This document shows positions 375 to 18,850 of a stretch of DNA of 64,000 nucleotides, piece by piece. Position numbers and translations under genes: made by a program. This DNA is from Candidatus Acidulodesulfobacterium acidiphilum. GTDB taxonomy: Bacteria; SZUA-79; Acidulodesulfobacterales; Acidulodesulfobacteraceae. A model generated the notes under the pieces. The model did not search any database and had not been told where the DNA came from. It saw only the letters and a program-made list of their open reading frames with translations. The stretch's first letter is position 1, and the number at the start of each line of letters is the position of its first letter. The stretch lies in the NCBI GenBank assembly GCA_008534395.1, contig SHMQ01000002.1, positions 74,310 through 138,309 on the forward strand, read 5' to 3'.

Positions 375-397
375 TATATATAAATAGCGAAGTTAAA
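375..397 (-). promoter_or_regulatory. Recurrent element-1 promoter-like motif, copy 1
   Basis: Minus-strand TTTAACTTCGCTATTTATATA, upstream of the 1-339 gene. It belongs to a family of at least six near-identical sites in this element, always in front of a minus-strand unit. The TTCGCTATAAT version in front of parA looks like an extended -10 box, so a promoter core is the simplest reading. Confidence 0.5.
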
Positions 398-735: not shown

Positions 736-874
736 CATAGGCACTTAAGTTCCATAATAAGCTCCGCCTGCGGAGCTTTAGGAACGACATATCCGTATCT
801 AACCTCATTGTCTCGCTATGCCGAATCAGCATAGCTATTAATTCTCTAAGTTGTTTTTTTATTTACTGCCTATA
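736..874 (-). ncRNA. Orphan retron-like msr-msd RNA, second copy
   Basis: Same design as the retron RNA at 3372-3575. Terminal inverted repeats at 862-874 (a1) and 736-748 (a2) pair with one C-C mismatch at the same position as in the first copy. An msr-type hairpin at 815-835 (GCTATGC stem, CGAATCA loop) lies exactly 26 nt from a1, as in the first copy, and the linker contains the shared CTAAGTTGTTT. Stem changes are compensatory: GTTATGC/GCATAAC becomes GCTATGC/GCATAGC. The msd-like hairpin is different and short (749-785, GTTCC/GGAAC outer stem with an inner AGCTCCGC/GCGGAGCT stem). No reverse transcriptase gene adjoins it. Transcript ends are inferred. Confidence 0.65.
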
Positions 875-890
875 TTTTTATAGCGAAGTT
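871..890 (-). promoter_or_regulatory. Recurrent promoter-like motif, copy 2
   Basis: AACTTCGCTATAAAAATATA on the minus strand, ending where the a1 arm of the orphan retron-like RNA begins. This places the likely transcription start at the RNA's 5' end. Confidence 0.5.
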
Positions 891-922
891 ATTCATTTTT
901 CTTTTTTGTCCGCATTGCGTAT

Positions 923-1675
923 TTAATATTCTTCTTCATTAAATAAATACTTCCTGTATTGTAATAAATCTTCCCTCGTCAATTCAGGAAAGTCGGCGGC
1001 AAAAGGAAAATCTAAATCGTCCGTTAAATATTCATTTATTTTTATATCCGGAATTTGAAAATTTATAAGCCTTAAACATTTTTTTAAGGTAAAATGCATA
1101 CTCGATAAACTCAAATACTCGTGGGCGGTATGCTCGTTATAGAACCCCGCCGAAAGATTAACGTTAAATCTTGAAAATCTTGACGAAAGCGTTAAAACGT
1201 CAGAATAACTGCCGATATTTTCTTTATATCCAAGCTTTTTGAAAATACGGTTTATATCTTCGCTCCCATAACCGTAATTAACAAATTCCCTAAATCCCCG
1301 ACGGTCAAGCCCGACAAAAAGCTTATGCTTTATGTCGTTAAAATCCATACAAAAAGCATTTACTCCCGCCTTTGTGGTTTCCTCGAAGTCTGTTATTAAT
1401 ATAGAAGCCCCCGCTTTCGCGAGGCTATAGGCTATCCAGACGCCCGCCCTGTCGTCGGCTCCCAAAATACCGTTTCTGTTGTAAATAAAATCGCCATATC
1501 GCTTTATATTAAATTCATTATCTCTTTTAACCGTATCGACGTGCGCATTGAAAAGAACGTCCGTATTACTTCCTTCTAAATAAAAATATGTTTTCTTATA
1601 AATCCCGTTTTTAAAAACCTTTTTAAAGTTATAAAATATTTCCTCTTTGCTTGCCGTTAGAAATTTTTTTATCAT
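923..1675 (-). CDS. M20/M28-type zinc peptidase
   Basis: A 250-aa cytoplasmic metallopeptidase with the full set of di-zinc ligands in order: NAHVDTV (His and Asp), GADDRAG (bridging Asp), TDFEET (catalytic Glu and metal Glu), GLDRRG (Asp) and EHTAHEY (His). This pattern is that of M20/M28/M42 co-catalytic aminopeptidases. It is short because the lid or dimerisation domain is absent. The start codon directly follows the stop of the upstream 286-aa gene (TAAATG), so translation is probably coupled. Its position next to a retron makes it an effector candidate, but it could equally be a nutrient or processing peptidase; the substrate is unknown. Confidence 0.75.
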   Translation of the reverse strand: MIKKFLTASKEEIFYNFKKVFKNGIYKKTYFYLEGSNTDVLFNAHVDTVKRDNEFNIKRYGDFIYNRNGILGADDRAGVWIAYSLAKAGASILITDFEETTKAGVNAFCMDFNDIKHKLFVGLDRRGFREFVNYGYGSEDINRIFKKLGYKENIGSYSDVLTLSSRFSRFNVNLSAGFYNEHTAHEYLSLSSMHFTLKKCLRLINFQIPDIKINEYLTDDLDFPFAADFPELTREDLLQYRKYLFNEEEY

Positions 1676-2536
1676 TTATATGCTCCTTTTATAATCTGCT
1701 AAAGCCTCTTTAATAGAACCGCAGCAGGCTATCCTTGAATGTCTTTTATGTTCAGCTTGTCCGCAAATCGGACAAATGTATTCCTGATTTTCTAATTCAT
1801 TGTAAAAAACTTCTTTTATCATTAGGCTTTTAAAATCTTCTACCTCGCTGTCTTTAACCGCTATAAAAGGGTCTAAATAAGTGCCGTGCATAGCACCCGC
1901 CCCGTTATATTCTTTAATCTTGTATTTTTCTATACCTATTAATTTAGCTATTTCCTGCCTCATCGTTTCCCCGTCAAATTGAGAGCCGTAATTTTTAAAC
2001 ATTAAAAAACCTTTTTTGCCGTCTTTTTCATAGAAATATAGCCAAGCCCTGCTCGTCTTTCTGCCTTTTTCCTGCGAAAATAAAATCGCCGTTCCGGGCA
2101 TTAATGCCCATTTAGGGACGCCGTGCGAATAACAACCGCCATCGGCAAAACAAGACTTAAATGTTGCGAAATCCGAAGGACTTAACATATCCGCAGGATT
2201 TGTAGATATAATAAAATCCGTTTTTCTGTCATAAGCTCCCGATGCATATAATTCAAAGTCGGCGGTATAGTCGTATCCCTTTTCTTTTGCTTTTTTGACT
2301 ATAAACCTTGTAAACTTTCCGTCGTCGGTAAGCCTGTTTTTTATTATCTCTTCGTCCGTTATCGTTTGACCTGTAAAGCTTCCGTAATATCTTTTTAAAT
2401 TTTTTAAATCCCACCTGTCCAAACCGGCAGGTAAAAACATTTTCGTTCTGTAATTATTTTCTTTATTATGTTTTAGCAATATCCTTGTTTTTTCCTTTGC
2501 GGTATTTAACGTGTCTATAAAAAAATCGTTTAGCAT
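1676..2536 (-). CDS. Unknown 286-aa protein with C-terminal zinc finger
   Basis: Translated from ATG at 2536 behind GGGAG. I recognise no family. Visible features are a conserved-looking core with STNPADMLSPSDFATFKSC, GGCYSHGVPKWALMPGT and SRAWLYF, and a C-terminal zinc finger with CPICG then HKRHSRIACCG. The cysteines and histidines in the core suggest a second metal site. It has its own promoter-like motif at 2585-2605 but lies directly downstream of the reverse transcriptase and is translationally coupled to the peptidase, so the three may act together. Retron effector status is inference. Confidence 0.55.
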   Translation of the reverse strand: MLNDFFIDTLNTAKEKTRILLKHNKENNYRTKMFLPAGLDRWDLKNLKRYYGSFTGQTITDEEIIKNRLTDDGKFTRFIVKKAKEKGYDYTADFELYASGAYDRKTDFIISTNPADMLSPSDFATFKSCFADGGCYSHGVPKWALMPGTAILFSQEKGRKTSRAWLYFYEKDGKKGFLMFKNYGSQFDGETMRQEIAKLIGIEKYKIKEYNGAGAMHGTYLDPFIAVKDSEVEDFKSLMIKEVFYNELENQEYICPICGQAEHKRHSRIACCGSIKEALADYKRSI

Positions 2537-2584
2537 TTTTAAAACTCCCTTTTATTTGTCCGCAATGCGAACTTTTTAACTTCC

Positions 2585-2605
2585 TATATATTTAGCGAAG
2601 TTAAA
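2585..2605 (-). promoter_or_regulatory. Recurrent promoter-like motif, copy 3
   Basis: TTTAACTTCGCTAAATATATA on the minus strand, between the stop of the reverse transcriptase and the 286-aa gene. A GTCCGCAATGCG half-palindrome follows at 2558-2569, as near motif copies at 871 and 15595. Confidence 0.5.
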
Positions 2606-3325
2606 TTAACCAAAAATCCCCGCCTTACTTTTAACCATTTTCCCGTAATTTTGCAAAAAAACAACCTTGCCTTGATGTTTTTCCGCCCTGATTTTCTTTT
2701 TCATTTCTTTTGTTAATCCGACTTTTTGATTAACGACAAGACCGCAAACATATTGCCTTTTCCAAGACGGCATTTTCTTTACTTTTTCGTAATTTATTTC
2801 CATACCGTATTTATTTAACTGCTTAACTATAAAAGATAAGGCTTTTTCCATAAGGTCATAGTCGTTTCCCGAAAAAGTTAAATCGTCTGCATATCTCGTA
2901 TATGCTATATTAAACCCAGCTAATTTTTTGGCGGTTTTATAATCGAATTTTTTTAAATATAAATTTGCTATATAGGGGCTCGTCGGCGCTCCCTGCGGAA
3001 GTCTCTTGCCTTTTCCGTCTTTAAAATCATAAAAACAAAGACCCCATTTAAGCTTTGCTTTTATAATCGATTTAGCTTTTTCAAGCGTAATAGAAGGAAA
3101 AAAATCTTTTATATCTATTGAATAAACGAATCTTTTATTTACGTGCGGTTTTGCGTTTGAAACTATGCTTTTGTTCGGCGTAAATCCGTGCGTATAAGGG
3201 CTGGCAGGATAGGCTTTATATAAGTATTTCAAATAATCTTCCTGCCTCTTTTTCGTTATGGGGTCTGGAGCTTCGATATGCCTCGTTCCTCCGTTTTTTT
3301 TCGGAATTTCAAAAACCCTATACAT
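2606..3325 (-). CDS. Retron-type reverse transcriptase
   Basis: RT domain with all core motifs: RT1 around RVFEIPKKNGGTRHIEAP, the retron NAxxH motif as NAKPH, the first catalytic Asp in YSIDIKDFFPSI, LPQGAPTSP, and the YADD box with RYADDLTFSG. The retron VTG motif appears as VCGLVVN. The usual start at 3370 lies almost in the RNA a2 arm and has no ribosome site; ATG at 3325 has AAAGGAGG eight bases upstream and is preferred, giving 239 aa. That is compact for a retron RT (usually about 300), lacking the N-terminal helices and part of the thumb. The msr-msd RNA lies immediately upstream, which argues against group II intron or DGR alternatives. Confidence 0.88.
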   Translation of the reverse strand: MYRVFEIPKKNGGTRHIEAPDPITKKRQEDYLKYLYKAYPASPYTHGFTPNKSIVSNAKPHVNKRFVYSIDIKDFFPSITLEKAKSIIKAKLKWGLCFYDFKDGKGKRLPQGAPTSPYIANLYLKKFDYKTAKKLAGFNIAYTRYADDLTFSGNDYDLMEKALSFIVKQLNKYGMEINYEKVKKMPSWKRQYVCGLVVNQKVGLTKEMKKKIRAEKHQGKVVFLQNYGKMVKSKAGIFG

Positions 3326-3371
3326 TTTCAAATCCTCCTTTGGCGGGATTTTAATATCCCGCCGTTGCATT

Positions 3372-3575
3372 AATAGACACTAAAAGTAAGCGGGGGCGGC
3401 GAAGAGTTCGCAGAGGTAAAGCGTATTCCCCACTATCTTTTTTTTCCTGTAGCTTTACCTTGCGAATCGTCGCCGCCAGAGCGGAAACCTGATAAAGCTA
3501 AACCTGATTAACTTGTTATGCCGAAACAGCATAACCGTTGCAAGAACTAAGTTGTTTGTCTTTTTACTGTCTATT
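3372..3575 (-). ncRNA. Retron msr-msd RNA
   Basis: Lies directly 5' of the reverse transcriptase. Arms a1 (3562-3575) and a2 (3372-3385) form an inverted repeat of eight pairs, one C-C mismatch and five more pairs. The msr hairpin at 3515-3535 has a GTTATGC stem and a TGTTTCG loop. The msd is one long imperfect hairpin at 3395-3477 with arms GGCGGCGA..GGTAAAGC and GCTTTACC..TCGCCGCC and a purine-rich loop. This order (a1, short msr stem, long msd stem, a2, RT) is the standard retron layout. The branching guanosine and exact 5' end cannot be fixed from sequence alone. Confidence 0.82.
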
Positions 3576-3755: not shown

Positions 3756-3776
3756 TATATATAAATAGCGAAGTTG
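3756..3776 (-). promoter_or_regulatory. Recurrent promoter-like motif, copy 4
   Basis: AACTTCGCTATTTATATATAA on the minus strand, upstream of the zinc-ribbon gene and the retron RNA. A degenerate further copy (AATAACTCGTTATTAAGATAT) sits at about 3578-3600, directly before the retron a1 arm. Confidence 0.5.
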
Positions 3777-4740: not shown

Positions 4741-4763
4741 TATATATTTATAGCGAAGTTAAA
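4741..4763 (-). promoter_or_regulatory. Recurrent promoter-like motif, copy 5
   Basis: TTTAACTTCGCTATAAATATA on the minus strand, between the stop of the 91-aa gene and the structured non-coding region. It suggests that region is separately transcribed. Confidence 0.5.
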
Positions 4764-10637: not shown

Positions 10638-11927
10638 TTACGCCAGTATTCTTTCCGTTATCCAATTGTTATTCCTCCTTATATGCTCTATTTTATCTGC
10701 GGCAACCTGCTTATAGGATTTGCCGTCCGCTTTTATATAGTCACCGTTAATATCCTGAACGTAGCAGGCGTTTCCGGTAAATCCCGAAATATATCCCTTT
10801 TTACCGCATACCTTAACTTTATCCCATAATGCAAACTTCCTGCCGTTTACGGTAATTTCTTTGGTATTTTTAGCGTTCCTGACCGAATGGACGTTAGGCT
10901 CTTTTCTGCCTTTCCTCGCCGTAGCTTCGTGCAGGGAACGTTTCTTTTTTCTTGCCTGCTTAATAACAGTTATAAGAATAACGTTATCTTTTACTTCCGT
11001 TATGCCTGTAATAGCTATGGCGTCGTTATAATGCTCTTTTTCTAATTCAAGACTGCGCCTGTTTATAGAAGTAAGATAGCCGTAGGTAAATGCAACCTTA
11101 TCTCCATAAATAGCCTTAAATTCGTCCATAAGTTTATATCTTACGGCGTTATACATTGCGGCGGATATAAACTGCTTTGCTTTTTTGAGTTTTGATAAAG
11201 CTCCTGTCTTATGTCCTTTTATATGACAGCTTTTATGTAATAACGCAAGATTATCGGGTTTATTAGTCCCGCCGTCCGCTCTCGGTATTATATGGTGAAT
11301 ATGCCAGCCGTCATTTTCTTTGTAACCTTTATGACAAAGCTGGCATTTGCCGCTTTCTCTTACGAGTAAAAACTGCTTGGCGTTTTCATAGCCGTATAAA
11401 GAGCCCTGCTGATATTCAACGCCGGATATGTCGGGATTAATAAGTTTTTGCATATCGAATTTATTAATTTCTATTTTTAACGTATAATCGGGATAATAGC
11501 TTACGAGTTCGTTAATTTTATTAACTATATGCCTTGCTTTTTGTTCTATGCTCGACGGTAACCGTCCTGCTTTTTTATTGCAGCGGTTTAAAAATCTTGC
11601 CTTGCGGTAACGGGTATTTCTGTTTCTTCTACTACGTCTCAATACTTTTCTTGCCGCAAGTAAAGATTTAACGTCGGTTCTTAACCTGATTTCGCCTTTT
11701 TCTACTATTTTACCGTTATCCAACGCTACTGCGTATCCGGTAGTATCGCCGGGGTCAACGCCTACGGTTGCGTGCTGGACAATTTCGGGAGTATCGAACA
11801 ATAACCGGATAGTAAACGGCTTTTTCGATATTATTACCGCCTTGCCTTCTTTTAGCATACGCCTTACCTTGCCGTATCTTTTGGTCGGCATAAGCTGTTT
11901 TCCGTTCTTGCTAATTACTTTTACCAT
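10638..11927 (-). CDS. iscB: IscB RNA-guided nuclease
   Basis: A 429-aa protein with the full IscB domain order: PLMP domain (QLMP at residues 11-14, KAVIISKKPFTIRL), RuvC-I (GVDPGDTTGYA, about 56-66), arginine-rich bridge helix (RRSRRNRNTRYRKARF), RuvC-II (KIEINKF), HNH with a zinc ribbon (CQLC, then HIHHIIPRADGG, NLALLHKSCH), RuvC-III (HYNDAIAI) and a C-terminal target-recognition domain. All catalytic residues are present, so both strands of a DNA target could be cut. ATG at 11927 follows AGAGGT. The omega RNA lies directly upstream. No tnpA transposase is visible, so mobility would need one in trans. Confidence 0.93.
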   Translation of the reverse strand: MVKVISKNGKQLMPTKRYGKVRRMLKEGKAVIISKKPFTIRLLFDTPEIVQHATVGVDPGDTTGYAVALDNGKIVEKGEIRLRTDVKSLLAARKVLRRSRRNRNTRYRKARFLNRCNKKAGRLPSSIEQKARHIVNKINELVSYYPDYTLKIEINKFDMQKLINPDISGVEYQQGSLYGYENAKQFLLVRESGKCQLCHKGYKENDGWHIHHIIPRADGGTNKPDNLALLHKSCHIKGHKTGALSKLKKAKQFISAAMYNAVRYKLMDEFKAIYGDKVAFTYGYLTSINRRSLELEKEHYNDAIAITGITEVKDNVILITVIKQARKKKRSLHEATARKGRKEPNVHSVRNAKNTKEITVNGRKFALWDKVKVCGKKGYISGFTGNACYVQDINGDYIKADGKSYKQVAADKIEHIRRNNNWITERILA

Positions 11928-12204: not shown

Positions 12205-12588
12205 TTATTCACCTAAACGTTTTTTGTCGTCTAAAACGTCGAGCGAAAACTTGTTTTTTTTATCGCTTTTTATGCAGTAATCTTTTATATTTTTTTCGTC
12301 CTCTTTTAAAAAAAATCTAATAAGAAGAATGGCAAGCGTAGATAGAAAAAGAAATAAAACTATATAGAAATAAATTCCGAGCAGAGCGCTTGAATGTTTA
12401 GTCGGAGATACATAAATATAGCCGTAATATCCGTATTTGACAAACGTAAAAACTTTTGAAAACATATCCCCGAACACAAACGTAAAATAGCGTCCGTAGA
12501 ACAATTTAAGAAACAAAAAGGGAAGGAAAAAGCATAAAAAAATTATAAAAATAATCGACAGAGCTTTGACTACGTGGTCTTTATACAT
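12205..12588 (-). CDS. Membrane protein of transfer operon
   Basis: A 127-aa protein with two strong membrane segments (about residues 8-30 and 70-92) and a charged cytoplasmic C-terminus. It overlaps the upstream ATPase gene by 8 bases. It may be the membrane anchor partner of that ATPase, as in split coupling proteins, but there is no motif to prove it. After its stop an AGGAGGAGTAATG ribosome-site-plus-start sequence leads straight into the IscB insertion, suggesting a downstream gene was interrupted. Confidence 0.55.
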   Translation of the reverse strand: MYKDHVVKALSIIFIIFLCFFLPFLFLKLFYGRYFTFVFGDMFSKVFTFVKYGYYGYIYVSPTKHSSALLGIYFYIVLFLFLSTLAILLIRFFLKEDEKNIKDYCIKSDKKNKFSLDVLDDKKRLGE

Positions 12589-13798
12589 TCCTTAGCGCTT
12601 CCTCCATATTGATATGTTGAAACTTCATAATACACTTCGTTAAATCCTGCCTTATCAATATTTTTCCTATAGCGTTTCCCGGTTTCAAAGCCGATATCGC
12701 AGACGGCTGGACGAGCCAGTCTTTTACCTGCCCTGACGACACCATTGTAGTTCCGTGCGTCTCCATCGTGCGGGATTTAACCTCTTCGATTTTATAGCCG
12801 AAGAGTCTCGAAATATCTTCGTTCCTTAATCCGTCCTGCGCGAAGATAATTTTATTTCTTGCGTTGTTTAGTATGATATCTAAAAGCGTCGGATCAAATC
12901 TATCGGCATCGGAAAATGACTGAGTAAGCAAAGCTATTTCGATTCCGAATCCTCTTATTTCTTTTATAATTTTACTGAAATAAGAAAACATTAAATCCGA
13001 AAATTCATCTATGGCAAACGTCATAAGAAAATCTCTCTGACGCGGTTTTACAAGTCTGATATACTCTATCGTCATTCTTCCGAAAGCGTTTTCAGTTTCG
13101 ATATTTCTTAGCGAAAACCAGTTGTCGGCTTTAATATCTATATTTTCCGCATCTTCATAATTTAAATTCTTAGCAAGAGCGAACGGCTGAAGTTTATTTA
13201 AAAAATTAGATATCAAAGAGGCGTAATCTGAGTTATTGACTATACCCGATAAAATTAGTTCTTCAGGCTTCGATAAATAGCTTTTATAAGTATCGTACAG
13301 CCTTTTCATCTCGTCCCTAAATAACGATAAAAACAATTTTTCAAAGGTAATATTTTCGATATAATCTATCGCAAAAGACAGAGCCTGAACCGCAAAATTT
13401 TGATAAAACGTTTCTTCCGTAGATATAACTTTAGGATAGAGCGAATTCTTTAACATTTCGAGTATTTCATCTTTTTTAAGACCTTTAAGCAGATTTATTT
13501 TAGATTTCATATCGTAAAAATTAGCTTCCGGCTTATAAATCCTTGCGACCATTTTTGCATTTTCATCGCCCTTGCCGTCTATTACCGTGATATTTTTTTT
13601 ATTAATCCAAAGCGGCAATAAAACGCTTTCGGTTTTTCCGGAGCCGGTTATACCGAAAGCTATCATATGGGCATCGGGAAAAGGGATTTTTATAACAGGA
13701 CTGTCATCTTCTTTGGTCATATCCTTGATTAAGGCAAAAACCGGCAACGATTTTTTTTGCATATTATCAGACTGCTTTTTGTTATTTAGAATATCCAA
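12581..13798 (-). CDS. TraG/VirD4-like coupling ATPase
   Basis: A 405-aa soluble ATPase. Walker A is GITGSGKTES, Walker B is FAIDEFSDL, and the downstream motif ALLTQSF matches the TraM-recognition/TraG region of type IV coupling proteins. There is no N-terminal membrane segment; the next gene (12205-12588) could supply it. It follows parA-parB and the RHH gene by 3 bases. Role inferred: DNA delivery to a transfer channel supplied by another element, since no T4SS genes are present. Confidence 0.75.
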   Translation of the reverse strand: MDILNNKKQSDNMQKKSLPVFALIKDMTKEDDSPVIKIPFPDAHMIAFGITGSGKTESVLLPLWINKKNITVIDGKGDENAKMVARIYKPEANFYDMKSKINLLKGLKKDEILEMLKNSLYPKVISTEETFYQNFAVQALSFAIDYIENITFEKLFLSLFRDEMKRLYDTYKSYLSKPEELILSGIVNNSDYASLISNFLNKLQPFALAKNLNYEDAENIDIKADNWFSLRNIETENAFGRMTIEYIRLVKPRQRDFLMTFAIDEFSDLMFSYFSKIIKEIRGFGIEIALLTQSFSDADRFDPTLLDIILNNARNKIIFAQDGLRNEDISRLFGYKIEEVKSRTMETHGTTMVSSGQVKDWLVQPSAISALKPGNAIGKILIRQDLTKCIMKFQHINMEEALRNV

Positions 13799-13800
13799 AA

Positions 13801-14022
13801 TTATTTTTCCTCCGTTTTTTTAGATTTAGCGGCTTTATTTTTCCCGTTAAGGTCTTCTATTAATTTCTGTTTTGAACTTTCAATTAAAGTTTTAACTATT
13901 TCCGACTGTTCTACTTTGTATTTCTTGGAAACTTCCGTTATTAAATCGTAAATAGATTTTGAAATTTTAACGTTCTTTAACGAAACGGTTTCTTCTTTTA
14001 CGAGTCTTTCAAAAATAGACAT
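13801..14022 (-). CDS. Ribbon-helix-helix-like DNA-binding protein
   Basis: A 73-aa protein whose N-terminal half fits an RHH fold (beta strand VSLKNVKISKSIYDLI, then two helices) and whose tail is lysine-rich. It lies 4 bases after parB. Plausible roles are relaxase accessory factor or operon repressor. Confidence 0.5.
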   Translation of the reverse strand: MSIFERLVKEETVSLKNVKISKSIYDLITEVSKKYKVEQSEIVKTLIESSKQKLIEDLNGKNKAAKSKKTEEK

Positions 14023-14025
14023 AAC

Positions 14026-14832
14026 TTAATCCTCCTTAATTTTAATTATTTGTTTTAATATTTTTTCCGTCTTTAATCCCGATGGAATTTTTAAAGTTAT
14101 ACTGGTCATTTTTTTTAAAAATAAAACCGACATTTTAGATGAATGTTCTTCGTTAAACCGGTTTATTAAATAGGTGATATTATCATTATCCAACGAAGAA
14201 TTTTTCTTATTTTGAATATCTTTAATATGCAGTTCATCAAAATCTTTTATTATCTCTTTTTTAACTTTAGCTTCGTCAATTCTCGAAACTTCTATCGCCT
14301 TTCTTACGTTTTTTTTGGTTATTTTGCCTTGCAAATCGTTTTCTACGCTTAAAAGGGAAATCATATCGCTTATATGACTTTTGCTTTTACCGACAAGACT
14401 TGCTATATCCCTTATAGTTTTGTTTTTGTCTAAAAGTTTTTTATATGCCTTTGCAAGCTCTATGGGTTCTAATTCTTTTCTTTGCAGATTTTCTATAATC
14501 TGAATTATAAAAATATCTTCTTCCTTTATATCGTTTCTTATATTGGCTTTGATAGTTTTTAAGCCTAACTGTCTAAACGCCGCAAGCCTTCTTTCGCCGC
14601 ATATAAGATTATAGTTGCCGCCACCGTCTTCTTTTACTACTATAGGTTCTAATAATCCGTGGGTCTTAATAGAATTCATAAGTTCGTCAAACTCTCTACC
14701 GCCTATATTTTCTCTTGGCTGCGAATATATTATTTTGACTTTTTCAGTTTCTATTTCGGTTTTATCGGTTTTATTTTCTTCGGCTTTTCCTCCGAGCCAA
14801 GACAAGGGATCTTTTAGTTCAAATTTTGCCAT
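14026..14832 (-). CDS. parB: ParB-type partition protein
   Basis: ParB/Spo0J family. The N-terminal CTP-binding domain shows GLLEPIVVKE and the GERRLAA box, followed by the IQIIENLQRKELEPIELA motif and an HTH (TIRDIASLVGKSKSHISDMISLL). ATG at 14832 behind GGGAGG is chosen over the upstream ATG because it fits the 14-base overlap with parA. With parA it stabilises the element when it is extrachromosomal, or marks a plasmid origin for the element. Confidence 0.85.
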   Translation of the reverse strand: MAKFELKDPLSWLGGKAEENKTDKTEIETEKVKIIYSQPRENIGGREFDELMNSIKTHGLLEPIVVKEDGGGNYNLICGERRLAAFRQLGLKTIKANIRNDIKEEDIFIIQIIENLQRKELEPIELAKAYKKLLDKNKTIRDIASLVGKSKSHISDMISLLSVENDLQGKITKKNVRKAIEVSRIDEAKVKKEIIKDFDELHIKDIQNKKNSSLDNDNITYLINRFNEEHSSKMSVLFLKKMTSITLKIPSGLKTEKILKQIIKIKED

Positions 14833-15586
14833 ATTTGCCTCCCGTAATTTCTTTGGCAAGGTCGATGTAGTCCGCCGCGCATTTAGAATTATTTTTGTAA
14901 GTATAAACCGTTTTACACATTGCTTGAGCTTCTTTTAATTTAGTATCCGTTCTAATAACCGTTTTAAACATTTTATCTCCAAGCTGAGGTTTTAAAACAG
15001 ATTCATAAATTTGTTTAGATACGGAAAGTCTTTTATTATAGCCCACGGCTAAGTATCCCATTATTTCGAGATTATTATTGATTTTTGATTTCACTCTGTC
15101 AAAAGTATTCAAAAAATCCGAAAGGCCGTCCACGGCAAACTTTTCAAGAAGTATAGGCACTATTATCCGGTCTGAAGCGGCAAGGGCGTTAAGTGATATT
15201 AAACCTAAAGAAGGCGGGCAGTCGATTAAAATATAATCGTATTTGTCTTTTACGTCCTTAAGAGCGTCCTTTAAAATATATTCCCTGCCTATTTTCATAA
15301 AAATTTCAAGCTCTACGCCCGATAAAGAAATATTCGAAGGCACTAAATCAATGCCGTCAACGTTGATTACGACATCTTTTAATAACGCCTTTTCCATTAA
15401 AACCGCTGATATTGATTTTTCAGGTTCTACTCTTTCGGTTAAATGAAGCGTAGCGTTTGCCTGAGGATCTAAATCTACGAGCAGAACTTTTTTTGAAGCA
15501 AGAGGCAAAGTTAAAGATTTTGAAAGATTAACGGCCGTCGTAGTTTTACCGACGCCGCCTTTCTGATTTACGATAGAAATAATCAT
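14819..15586 (-). CDS. parA: ParA-type partition ATPase
   Basis: A 255-aa deviant-Walker ATPase: KGGVGKTTTAVNL, LLVDLDPQANAT and LIDCPPSLG are all present. It lacks the long N-terminal HTH of type Ia ParA, so it resembles the Soj type. ATG at 15586 behind GGGGG is preferred to the one at 15598. First gene of the par-coupling ATPase operon, with a TATAAT core in the promoter-like motif just upstream. Confidence 0.9.
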   Translation of the reverse strand: MIISIVNQKGGVGKTTTAVNLSKSLTLPLASKKVLLVDLDPQANATLHLTERVEPEKSISAVLMEKALLKDVVINVDGIDLVPSNISLSGVELEIFMKIGREYILKDALKDVKDKYDYILIDCPPSLGLISLNALAASDRIIVPILLEKFAVDGLSDFLNTFDRVKSKINNNLEIMGYLAVGYNKRLSVSKQIYESVLKPQLGDKMFKTVIRTDTKLKEAQAMCKTVYTYKNNSKCAADYIDLAKEITGGKYGKI

Positions 15587-15594
15587 AAAATCCC

Positions 15595-15612
15595 CCATTA
15601 TAGCGAAGTTAA
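15595..15612 (-). promoter_or_regulatory. parA promoter, recurrent motif copy 6
   Basis: Minus-strand TTTAACTTCGCTATAAT. Here the motif contains a perfect TATAAT -10 box with TTGCGG 18 bases upstream, which is the basis for reading the whole motif family as promoters. Confidence 0.6.
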
Positions 15613-15618
15613 ATAAAA

Positions 15619-15632
15619 GTCCGCAATGCGGA
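15619..15632. promoter_or_regulatory. Palindrome TCCGCAATGCGGA at parA promoter
   Basis: GTCCGCAATGCGGA overlaps the -35 region of parA. Half-palindromes GTCCGCAATGCG (2558-2569) and GTCCGCATTGCG (908-919) lie beside other copies of the promoter motif. It is a candidate operator or ParB site. Confidence 0.45.
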
Positions 15633-15662
15633 TTAATAAAAAAATATCACTTTAATAAATGT

Positions 15663-15687
15663 TTGTCAATACAAAATTTATTGACAA
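15663..15687. promoter_or_regulatory. TTGTCAATA palindrome, dsb-like gene operator
   Basis: TTGTCAATA and TATTGACAA are perfect 9-bp arms with a 7-bp spacer. They lie in the divergent region between parA and the thioredoxin-like gene, and include a TTGACA that could serve as its -35. The XRE regulator encoded at 16339-16875 is a possible binder. Confidence 0.5.
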
Positions 15688-15718
15688 TGTAATTTTAATA
15701 TGATATTTTTTAAACATT

Positions 15719-16297
15719 ATGAAAAAAATATTAATTCTTATCTTTATTTCAGCTTTATTTTTTACGGTAAGAAATACATTCGCTTATAATATAGGAAACC
15801 CTGACGCTAAAATAAAAATAATAGAATACTCCGATTACGAATGTCCATATTGCAGAAAATTTGAACTAAAAGTATTTCCATATATTTATAAAAACTATAT
15901 TAAAAGCGGCTATATCGATTGGGATTTTAGGGATTACCCGTTGGTAAATATTCATGCTTTCGCTTATAAGGCGGCGGTTATAGCCGACTGCTCCGGAAAT
16001 AATTATATGACGGTAAGGTATTACCTTTTTAAATATCAAAACGAATGGAAACAAACCGGAAATATATATAAAATATTAAAAAGATATATAAACATAAAGC
16101 CTGTGGAAACTTGCGTTAATACGAGATACTCTCAAAAGATAGTAGATAACGATTTAAGGCAAGCGTATAAATTGGGATTAAGAGCTACGCCGAGTTTTGT
16201 TATTGATAAAAACGGCAAATATTTACAGACTATAAAAGGATACCATAATAGCGGTTTTTGGTATTTGACTTTGAATTTTCTGTTATCCGACAAATAA
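15719..16297 (+). CDS. Periplasmic DsbA-like thiol oxidoreductase
   Basis: A 192-aa protein with a signal peptide (hydrophobic residues 4-20, cleavage near TFA-YN). The thioredoxin-fold active site is CPYC in DYECPYCRKFE, and the cis-proline loop is RATPSFVID. The two further cysteines (ADCSG, ETCVN) may pair. This is the DsbA/thioredoxin_4 family that forms or reshuffles disulfides. On a transfer element it may help fold transfer or surface proteins. It is transcribed away from the par operon. Confidence 0.85.
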   Translation: MKKILILIFISALFFTVRNTFAYNIGNPDAKIKIIEYSDYECPYCRKFELKVFPYIYKNYIKSGYIDWDFRDYPLVNIHAFAYKAAVIADCSGNNYMTVRYYLFKYQNEWKQTGNIYKILKRYINIKPVETCVNTRYSQKIVDNDLRQAYKLGLRATPSFVIDKNGKYLQTIKGYHNSGFWYLTLNFLLSDK

Positions 16298-16338
16298 TTT
16301 CTTTAACTGCAATTGTCAACTTATTTTTTTAATTAATT

Positions 16339-16875
16339 ATGAATATAAAAGAAGTCAATAAAATCATTGGAAATAATATAAAAAAATATAGAAAAGGACA
16401 GGGAATCACGCAAGGTGATTTATCTAAATCTTTAAAAATAACGCAGCAAGCTATCGCTAATTACGAAAAAGGTTTAAACCGCATTGCTTATGATAAACTT
16501 GAGCATATAGCTGTTTTACTCGGTATTCCTTTGTTGTATTTTTTTTTAGATACTAATAATGAAACTTTAGTTAATAATATAAATTTCGATTATTTATTGA
16601 AGTTAGCTTCTGATTATTTCGATATAAAACTCAATGAATCGCTTAAAATAGACCTTAAAGAATCATTGCAAAAAGTTTTTCAAAATAAGACGATTAGAAA
16701 TCAATTTTTTGGAGAATATGGACAATTTCAAGGGGGATTTAGGGAAGTTAAAAAACTGATGGATATATATATATCAGGAAATGAAACATTAATAACTAAT
16801 ATAAATAATCAAATAAATTTAATACATTCAATGCTCAAAAAGACAAACTTAGATAAATATCCCGAAGAAGAATGA
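16339..16875 (+). CDS. XRE-family transcriptional regulator
   Basis: The N-terminal 65 residues are a Cro/CI-type HTH (IKKYRKGQGITQGDLSKSL, then ITQQAIANYEKG). The C-terminal 110 residues are helical with no peptidase motif, so it is not a LexA-like cleavable repressor. It lies between the thiol oxidoreductase and the small gene pair near the integrase and probably controls element genes. Confidence 0.8.
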   Translation: MNIKEVNKIIGNNIKKYRKGQGITQGDLSKSLKITQQAIANYEKGLNRIAYDKLEHIAVLLGIPLLYFFLDTNNETLVNNINFDYLLKLASDYFDIKLNESLKIDLKESLQKVFQNKTIRNQFFGEYGQFQGGFREVKKLMDIYISGNETLITNINNQINLIHSMLKKTNLDKYPEEE

Positions 16876-16979
16876 AAATAGTAAAACAAATGCTTTTTCC
16901 TAAACTTGATTATCTTTCCGTATAGTGGTATATTTTATTATATAATGAGTTATAAAAAATTAAATAAGGGGTAAAAAAA

Positions 16980-17210
16980 ATGGATAAAAAACCAATAAAT
17001 ACTGAAGATGCAATGGATGTAGCAAAAGGAGTGGCCGAAAAGGCTGGTTTGCCTTTAATGTTTACAACTATAAACAGCATTAAAAAAGAAAATGAAGAAT
17101 ATATTATAATATTATCCAATACTTTAAATAAGAATAGTTATAAAGTTCGTATTAATGCTAAAACCGGGGATGTAATCGAATGGGAAGAGATGATACAACA
17201 GAAGCCATAG
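16980..17210 (+). CDS. PepSY-like small protein, partner of downstream gene
   Basis: 76 aa, preceded by AAGGGG. The C-terminal part YKVRINAKTGDVIEW resembles the end of a PepSY domain. There is no signal peptide. Its 3' end overlaps the next gene by 31 bases, as in toxin-antitoxin pairs. Role unproven. Confidence 0.5.
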   Translation: MDKKPINTEDAMDVAKGVAEKAGLPLMFTTINSIKKENEEYIIILSNTLNKNSYKVRINAKTGDVIEWEEMIQQKP

Positions 17211-17581
17211 AAAAAATTGGGAAATATAAGCATAGAGCCGAGAAACTTTTTGAAAATGCTAAGATATTCTTAGATAAAGGAGAATATGAAAAAACCGGAG
17301 AGTTTTTATGGGGTGCTCTTGCGGCATATATTAATGCCATTGTATTTCTCAGGACAGGCGAAGCAAAATATAGCCATAATAAGTTAGTTACGGCAGGAGA
17401 AAACATTGCTAAGGCTACAAAAGATGCGGATTTATTAAAGGCTATTCGTCAAACAGGACAGAAACTTCATGCGAATTACTATCATGGTTTTCTTATTCTT
17501 GAAGATTTTAAAGATATGTTTCCTGAAATCGAAAATGCAATAGAAAAACTTGATAATATTCTCTTTAATGAATTAAAATAA
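17180..17581 (+). CDS. PaREP1/HEPN-like protein
   Basis: A 133-aa all-helical protein resembling PaREP1 family proteins of archaea and bacteria: KHRAEKLFENAKIFLDKGEY, FLWGALAAYINA, HNKL and a C-terminal RQTGQKLHANYYH. The last contains R-x6-H, compatible with the HEPN ribonuclease motif, though this motif alone is weak. Overlap with the upstream small gene suggests a two-gene module, perhaps toxin-antitoxin. Confidence 0.6.
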   Translation: MGRDDTTEAIEKIGKYKHRAEKLFENAKIFLDKGEYEKTGEFLWGALAAYINAIVFLRTGEAKYSHNKLVTAGENIAKATKDADLLKAIRQTGQKLHANYYHGFLILEDFKDMFPEIENAIEKLDNILFNELK

Positions 17582-17640
17582 AAAAATCCTTTCAAATTTC
17601 CGTTTTAAGGCCTTTGACTTTTTATTTAGTTATAAAACCA

Positions 17641-18684
17641 TTAATCTTTTTTACTACTCTTATTCCACACGTCGTCAACGGCCTTGCGTAAAGTGCTTGG
17701 AACTAAATGCGAATACCTTTTCGTCATCTGCGTTGTTCTATGTCCCAGAAGTTCCCCTGTGATATAAAGCGACGTCCCGTCCATTACCATTTTACTTGCG
17801 AAGACGTGCCTTAAATCGTGAATGTGCATATCCTTAAATCCCGCATTTTTACAGGCGGTATTGAAAGACTTCTTAAAATCGCCTAATTTAGCCCCGTTTT
17901 TGTTAAATACGTATAAACAGTCCTGATGTTTTTCAATACCGCCTAAAAGCTCTTTTAAGGGCTTACTTATCGGAACATAGCGGTCATACTTAGTCTTAGT
18001 TCCCTTTATGGCTATTACGTCGTTCTGTAAGTCCACGTCGTCCCATTTGAGGTTAAGGGCTTCCCCTTTCCGGCAGCCTGAAAGGATTAAGAAAGTTATT
18101 AAGTCTTTAGTAAGTTTATTGGAAGCTCCATTAATCAATTTTAAGATATCTTTATCGGATAAAGTTTTTAACCTGGACAGCTCGTTAAGTTTTTTAACGC
18201 CGCCTGCCGGATTCTTTTCGATGAGTTCCTTTTCAATGCAGAAGTTAAAGAAGTGATGAAGGGTAGTTATTTCTAAATTTACCGATCTGAAACTTATTTC
18301 GGATTCTTTTTTGCCGATATTTTTCGGCATGGCCATAATTTCTATTTTTCTTTTCAACTGGTAGTCTTTGATATTAGACTGCGTAATATCGGAAATGCTT
18401 TTGTCTTTAAATATAGGTAGGAAATGTTTAGATAGGCTTATTTTATCTTTCGTAGTCTTGCTTGAATGGCTCTGGTTTTTTATATATTGCTCCCATGCCG
18501 TTAAAAAGGTATAATTATTTTTAACCGGCATGCTGAATTTTTTCCGGACCAGATCGGCTTCTATTGTATTTGCTATTTGCTGAGCAAGTTTCTTATTGTC
18601 AGTTTTGGTAGAACCGCGGTATCTGAATCCGTTAAGACGTATTTGATACCAGTATGTATCGTTTCTTTTATAAATGCTTGCCAT
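17641..18684 (-). CDS. int: Tyrosine recombinase (element 1 integrase)
   Basis: 347 aa with an SAM-like core-binding region (about 60-160) and a catalytic domain with the R-H-R-H-Y set: SGCRKGEAL, HIHDLRHVFAS, LLGHRTTQMTKRYSHL. ATG at 18684 (MASIYKR) is preferred to the 23-codon longer frame, which starts with an unlikely aromatic-rich stretch. It lies 166 bases from the tRNA-Lys fragment it presumably uses as attachment site, transcribed inward. Confidence 0.92.
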   Translation of the reverse strand: MASIYKRNDTYWYQIRLNGFRYRGSTKTDNKKLAQQIANTIEADLVRKKFSMPVKNNYTFLTAWEQYIKNQSHSSKTTKDKISLSKHFLPIFKDKSISDITQSNIKDYQLKRKIEIMAMPKNIGKKESEISFRSVNLEITTLHHFFNFCIEKELIEKNPAGGVKKLNELSRLKTLSDKDILKLINGASNKLTKDLITFLILSGCRKGEALNLKWDDVDLQNDVIAIKGTKTKYDRYVPISKPLKELLGGIEKHQDCLYVFNKNGAKLGDFKKSFNTACKNAGFKDMHIHDLRHVFASKMVMDGTSLYITGELLGHRTTQMTKRYSHLVPSTLRKAVDDVWNKSSKKD

Positions 18685-18850
18685 ATTTAGCCGTAAAATA
18701 ATGTGGTCGTTTTTGTGTCTAAAATAAAAATACGATACGGTAAAATATAGCATTTTACGGACTAAAAAAGCAAGAAAAATTTTAAATATAAAAACCGCAA
18801 AGCATTAAAAATATTGATTTAGCAAGGCATTAATGATAATAAAAGCTTAT

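Follow-up and report, generated by a model that had tools for sequence, protein, structure and literature searches.

We found a single retron-type reverse transcriptase (RT) gene between two different, structurally conserved RNAs that have the parts of retron templates (msr-msd RNAs), in a mobile element whose host is an uncultured bacterium. In the window, by which we mean the whole 64-kb stretch of DNA analysed, the order on the minus strand is RNA1, RT, two further genes (ORF286 and ORF250) and RNA2, in one compact cassette (Table 1). The reading we favor, with a probability of roughly 70%, is that of a two-template retron cassette on a conjugative or integrative element, in which one compact RT would use two template RNAs and make two msDNAs.

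Table 1. Features of the cassette and of its two RNAs in the window.
Feature	Position	Strand	Basis
RNA1, msr-msd-like RNA upstream of RT	3373..3574	-	sequence; covariation; match to model R1 (E 1e-16; RNA1 belongs to its training set)
RNA1 a1, ATAGACA	3574-3568	-	sequence
RNA1 candidate priming G	3567	-	directly after a1
RNA1 msr hairpin, GTTATGCTG-TTT-CGGCATAAC	3535-3515	-	sequence
RNA1 long msd hairpin	about 3500-3380	-	sequence
RNA1 a2, TGTCTAT	3379-3373	-	sequence
Retron-type RT, 254 aa	2606..3370	-	PADLOC; Pfam RVT_1; Ec86 RT match; alignment; dN/dS
ORF286, uncharacterised protein	1676..2536	-	kept in all cassettes
ORF250, small M20/M28/M42-like di-zinc peptidase (predicted)	923..1675	-	PHROG 4191; phage peptidases; aligned residues
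AACTTCGCTAT motif, candidate RNA2 promoter	880..890	-	lies 6 nt before RNA2; seen ahead of many genes of the element
RNA2, second msr-msd-like RNA, downstream of ORF250	737..873	-	RNA1-only model (E 9e-7); conserved position in L038, L039 and L037; covariation
RNA2 a1, ATAGGCA	873-867	-	sequence
RNA2 candidate priming G	866	-	directly after a1
RNA2 msr hairpin, GCTATGCTG-ATT-CGGCATAGC	835-815	-	sequence
RNA2 msd hairpin	about 790-750	-	sequence
RNA2 a2, TGCCTAT	743-737	-	sequence
AACTTCGCTAT(A), all copies in the window	384-394, 880-890, 3765-3775, 4750-4760, 15600-15610	-	motif search

Both RNAs were located on the minus strand where a preliminary description of this DNA had put them, with the same parts in the same order: an a1/a2 stem, an unpaired G right after a1 and a 9-bp msr hairpin, followed by msds that have little in common. 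The compensatory changes reported there are real (A-U to G-C in the a1/a2 stem, U-A to C-G in the msr). Its kept 'C-C mismatch' is indeed an invariant opposition in the a1/a2 stem (7/7 RNAs) but reads G-G on the RNA strand, and of its identical 26-nt spacing what stands is that a1 and the CAACTTAG block lie equally far apart in both RNAs; a1 and the msr hairpin are separated by 32 nt in RNA1 and by 31 nt in RNA2. The G immediately 3' of a1 is also invariant in 7/7 RNAs, in the context AGT (GGT in one RNA) rather than the usual AGC, and as a candidate priming site it fits the description of the priming G in PMC6868368.

The arms of the RNA2 msd hairpin match yet differ in sequence between the window (AAGCTCCGC/GCGGAGCTT) and the homologous locus L038 (ATGAGCTC/GAGCTCAT), while GGATATGTCGTTC...GAACTT is common to the two RNAs and flanks different hairpin tips. 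Predicted msDNA hairpins fold better than shuffled sequences (z -3.0, -3.5 and -4.8). The RNA2 hairpins of both loci keep an AGCT, and one might speculate that it is a methylation bait, by analogy with GATC, for which such a role has been suggested in other retrons (PMC12548924). Hairpins of the GGCGGGAT...ATCCCGCC type were observed 3' of the RNA1 a2 in all three cassettes (window 3340-3365; L037:8025-8055), and a related hairpin lies 3' of the window RNA2 (705-735). No retron family of Rfam matched within the 12 kb surrounding the cassette, and Rfam therefore neither supports nor refutes the msr-msd identity.

Covariation in homologues, on which the preliminary description had made its structural reading depend, proved to be strong. 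In a sequence-only MAFFT alignment of seven RNAs, covering the a1/a2 stem (6 pairs, the G-G opposition and U-A) and the 9-bp msr hairpin, 112 of 112 cells were paired and 10 of the 16 pairs had changes on both sides, whereas sliding the partner by 1-3 columns left 31-47% pairing. The covariation score was 0.53, compared with 0.23 for shuffled and at most 0.17 for slid partners. When the RNA2 copies were taken together with the hybrid RNA of locus L061 (a relic described below), 6 pairs were double-changed and pairing was 97%; the two unpaired cells were the hybrid's broken msr pair and an alignment gap in the a2 of an L037 RNA. Every tested pair is kept, with compensatory changes, in the RNA2 of the window, L038 and L037.

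As a check on circularity, a covariance model was trained on four RNA1s only. It recovered the window RNA2 (E 9e-7), the L038 RNA2 (2e-8) and the third RNA of L037 (5e-6). The RNA2 of L037, the most diverged of the RNAs, gave no match to this model at E < 1, and a model trained without both odd L037 RNAs recovered the two of them (8e-7 and 3e-5). A structure-only pattern, written after the RNAs had been seen (any 6-nt a1 with an exact a2, a GT/AG junction and a 9-bp hairpin), fits two places in the 64-kb window, exactly RNA1 and RNA2, two in L038 and three in L037; 60 dinucleotide-shuffled windows, with 7.7 million positions, gave no fit. In the region 3' of the msr hairpin, with the third L037 RNA set aside, identity was 54-65% among RNA2s, 72-88% among RNA1s and 38-58% between the sets, a grouping that is less clear over the whole 5' half. 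The RNA2 copies are thus an orthologue set and not the product of repeated fresh duplication.

Homologues were sought in a set of 61 genomes and in a phylum set of 30. Among the 61 genomes, close RT relatives (82%, tblastn) occur only in the window's own genome (G000, second copy on contig C5), in G005 of the same genus and in G027, which belongs to another genus of the family. In this set, ORF286 and ORF250 show strict co-occurrence with the RT, being found exactly where its relatives are and nowhere else. The order RNA1-RT-ORF286-ORF250-RNA2 is kept in the window, G000:C5, G005:C108 and G027:C64; since the cassettes of the last two are nearly identical, there are three independent cassettes (window, G000:C5 and G005:C108), all in one family of bacteria. 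These homologous cassettes support the earlier proposal of a retron RT with two msr-msd-like RNAs, but RNA2, previously regarded as a free-standing distant RNA, turns out to be the conserved 3' end of the cassette. The window and L038/L039 have two RNAs per RT and L037 has three, departing from the canonical layout of one ncRNA per RT; in G000:C5, with three RNAs in all, the extra one lies between RNA1 and the RT.

The RNA model matched only 3 of the 61 genomes, those with this RT, and the same three-genome limit held in the phylum set. At more distant retron RT loci (L025-L030, 38-43% identity) there was no match to the RNA model and no clear msr-like hairpin with a TTCGG loop, and in viral contigs neither relatives of the RT, ORF286 or ORF250 nor msr patterns were detected. 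All three cassette proteins are under purifying selection (dN/dS 0.08-0.16; 0.10-0.14 for the RT), with dS between cassettes of 0.75-1.8 and one pair saturated. At such divergence functionless sequence, including an unused RNA2, should have decayed.

Sequence comparisons place the RT among the retron RTs. Its best PADLOC profiles are RT_XIII (1e-60), RT_III-A (3e-59) and RT_X (4e-59), the NCBIfam retron St85 RT profile matches below its cut-off, and the nearest solved relative is the Ec86 RT (E 5e-31); outside this bacterial family the nearest relatives are retron RTs at about 31-43% identity. The protein has 254 aa, or 239 counted from MYRVFEI. With the retron RT regions X and Y defined as in PMC6868368, the alignment places the region X motif NAxxH (as NAKPH) and the catalytic YADD; in all three cassettes the VTG triplet is replaced by VCG and region Y spans about 47 aa, counted from that triplet to the C-terminus, compared with the usual of about 90. 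A region Y of half length is unusual, but VTG substitutions occur among validated retrons and the remainder of region Y is variable (PMC6868368), so these two features alone do not exclude retron membership. As region Y binds the msr in Ec86, its half length and the VCG suggest that msr binding may need help. A tblastn flag of a TAG inside the G000:C5 RT was rejected as a disruption; the TAG is the gene's own stop codon near the end, and a 236-aa ORF spans the catalytic core. The source genome also carries more distant RT genes at C10:38323 and C20:14294 (30-36% identity), with open frames of 1024 and 377 codons.

The two partner genes belong to no known effector family and have no known link to defence, and no PADLOC model matched either of them convincingly. 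ORF286 is 73-78% identical among cassettes, with a conserved core and a C-terminal CPxC...CC that looks zinc-binding and zinc-finger-like; it had no significant match in Pfam, PHROGs, NCBIfam, PADLOC, PDB, phages or plasmids. ORF250 matches PHROG 4191 'peptidase' (3e-24) and phage peptidases (best 2e-12). Aligned with the M20 peptidase of Brevibacillus phage Jenst, it keeps H45, D47, D74, E98, E99, D124 and H182, which we take, from general knowledge of the clan, to be the di-zinc site of M20/M28/M42 peptidases; Pfam assigns the aligned phage peptidase to M42, M28 and M20. Gliomedin and myocilin, which ORF250 matched in the PDB, were rejected as chance matches, because these alignments ignore the catalytic residues that line up with M20/M28/M42 peptidases. 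AlphaFold models built from three-sequence alignments (mean pLDDT 38 for ORF286 and 35 for ORF250) were not used.

Genes for a TraG/VirD4-like coupling protein, ParB, ParA and a tyrosine integrase (window 12581-18753, minus strand) place the cassette within an integrative or conjugative element. The same element encodes an IscB-like protein (RRXRR domain plus HNH; window 10638-11927, minus strand), its other side, seen in L040, carries RecT and an RNase T-type exonuclease, and an ArdC homologue is present in L038. AACTTCGCTAT occurs five times on the minus strand of the window, where about 0.04 copies are expected, and 9-10 times per 14-16 kb, on one strand each, in L038, L039 and L040 (about 0.01 expected). 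Optionally followed by an A, it stands ahead of many of the element's genes and lies on their coding strand in every case (window, L038, L039, L040, L041 and L061). The copy before the window RNA2 has a counterpart at the same place in L038, and copies precede RNA1 in L038 and L037; we consider the motif a candidate element-specific promoter or regulator site, including for RNA2.

Two loci of G005 carry scars of this cassette. In L061 (contig C92, 7405-7546) a single hybrid RNA has a 5' half like the RNA1 of L038 and a 3' half like its RNA2; the genes between the RNAs are deleted, no RT is left, and the exchange lies inside the msr hairpin, leaving a C-A mismatch. In L041 (contig C41, 2870-3019) RNA1 breaks off inside the msd, where it meets the end of an ORF125-like gene. 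Cassette loss therefore occurs, in one case through recombination of RNA1 with RNA2.

On the two-template reading, both RNAs would be transcribed and a single RT would recognise their common msr, a 9-bp hairpin ending YG-NNN-CGG, together with the a1/a2 stem and its unpaired G. It would prime on the G after a1 and copy two different msd hairpins, giving two msDNAs, of which the RNA1 product would be long (roughly 100-120 nt) and the RNA2 product short (roughly 55-65 nt). We infer that one RT serves both RNAs because they share the msr, the form of a1/a2 and the unpaired G; RNA2 may, as had been proposed, be supplied in trans and yield a second msDNA. The msd of the L037 RNA2 is long, so this second product would not be of fixed size. 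Retron RTs recognise their own msr, prime on the G at the inner end of a1 and copy the msd (PMC6868368), and a model in which the resulting complexes restrain partner proteins and sense attack by phages or plasmids is summarised in PMC12548924. By analogy with such characterised retrons, RT-msDNA complexes may hold ORF286 (zinc-finger) and ORF250 (peptidase) inactive until a phage or rival element alters either msDNA and releases them, so that two msDNAs would make two sensors. A more elaborate form, which we find conceivable although doubtful, is that the short RT, with half of region Y missing, is aided by the zinc-finger ORF286, and that two or three msDNAs jointly guard a peptidase effector, tampering with either of them triggering the response.

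RNA2 could instead be a conserved RNA that binds the RT without being copied into DNA, acting as a decoy or regulator by titrating the enzyme or adjusting how the RNA1 complex is assembled. Such a role would suit an RNA that keeps its msr and a1/a2 while its msd is short and variable among cassettes, and that has its own candidate promoter motif. However, the a1/a2 stem of RNA2 is maintained together with the unpaired G and a strong msd hairpin whose arms match, and the 3' arm priming cDNA synthesis would be superfluous in a pure decoy; we regard this explanation as unlikely. The idea that RNA2 arose by duplication of RNA1 and is now dead or drifting draws on the existence of relics, the L061 hybrid with its broken msr pair and no RT and the truncated RNA1 of L041. 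It is already largely refuted, and we give it very little credence: synonymous sites are near saturation, yet all tested RNA2 pairs are kept with compensatory changes, and the structure-only pattern, which fails on the L061 relic, fits every cassette RNA2.

The L061 mosaic could also mean that the RNAs are mainly bookends, direct repeats for cassette loss or exchange through homologous or msDNA-templated recombination, and the genes beyond RNA2 do differ among loci (ORF83 in the window, ORF125 in L038, ORF180 in L037). But within a locus the 5' halves of the two RNAs are only 64-65% alike, and it is the pairs that are kept, not identical sequence, unlike repeats selected for recombination; moreover, ordinary recombination suffices for the L061 scar. 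This makes the bookend explanation highly improbable. The least probable of the explanations considered is that the RNAs are cis-regulatory leaders of downstream genes: although each ends 10-90 nt before an ORF, the gene after RNA2 changes from locus to locus while the gene before it is always ORF250, and the architecture and the co-occurrence with a retron RT fit msr-msd RNAs.

The cassette combines a retron-clade RT, with YxDD and NAxxH, and an adjacent ncRNA with a1/a2, an msr hairpin and an msd hairpin, features by which it would count as a retron save for the short region Y and the presence of more than one RNA per RT. Retron Eco1 (Ec86, type II-A), source of the nearest solved RT relative, has the same order of a1, priming G, msr, msd and a2 upstream of the RT and an msr that likewise includes a hairpin whose loop is TGTTTCGG. 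Whereas Ec86 has a 320-aa RT with a full region Y, a nucleoside deoxyribosyltransferase-type effector and one ncRNA per RT, the cassettes described here have two or three RNAs, an RT of 236-254 aa and unrelated neighbour genes. The RT is matched best by the PADLOC profiles of classes XIII, III-A and X, but their effector genes were not found. A peptidase is associated with a retron RT in type XI retrons as well, where a trypsin-like protease is fused to the RT; in contrast, ORF250 is a separate protein and probably a di-zinc peptidase of the M20/M28/M42 type. In Nannocystis exedens, msd-like sequence likewise lies away from the RT, in msDNA-like orphan repeats that, to go by the titles of the reports cited in PMC6868368, are said to be partial copies and probably retrotransposed; compared with repeats so described, RNA2 is complete, occupies a conserved place and is kept by compensatory changes.

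To our knowledge, descriptions and annotations of retrons pair one RT with one template RNA, and a full-text literature search, with key subscription papers on retron classification outside its reach, found no retron with two template RNAs. One RT with two or three RNAs that share the msr and not the msd would show what the enzyme needs to read in its RNA. With a two-RNA retron one could test directly whether distinct msDNAs act as distinct sensors, and genome editing would gain a natural model for producing two DNAs from one RT. The short RT and the pair of new partner genes also widen the spectrum of retron types.
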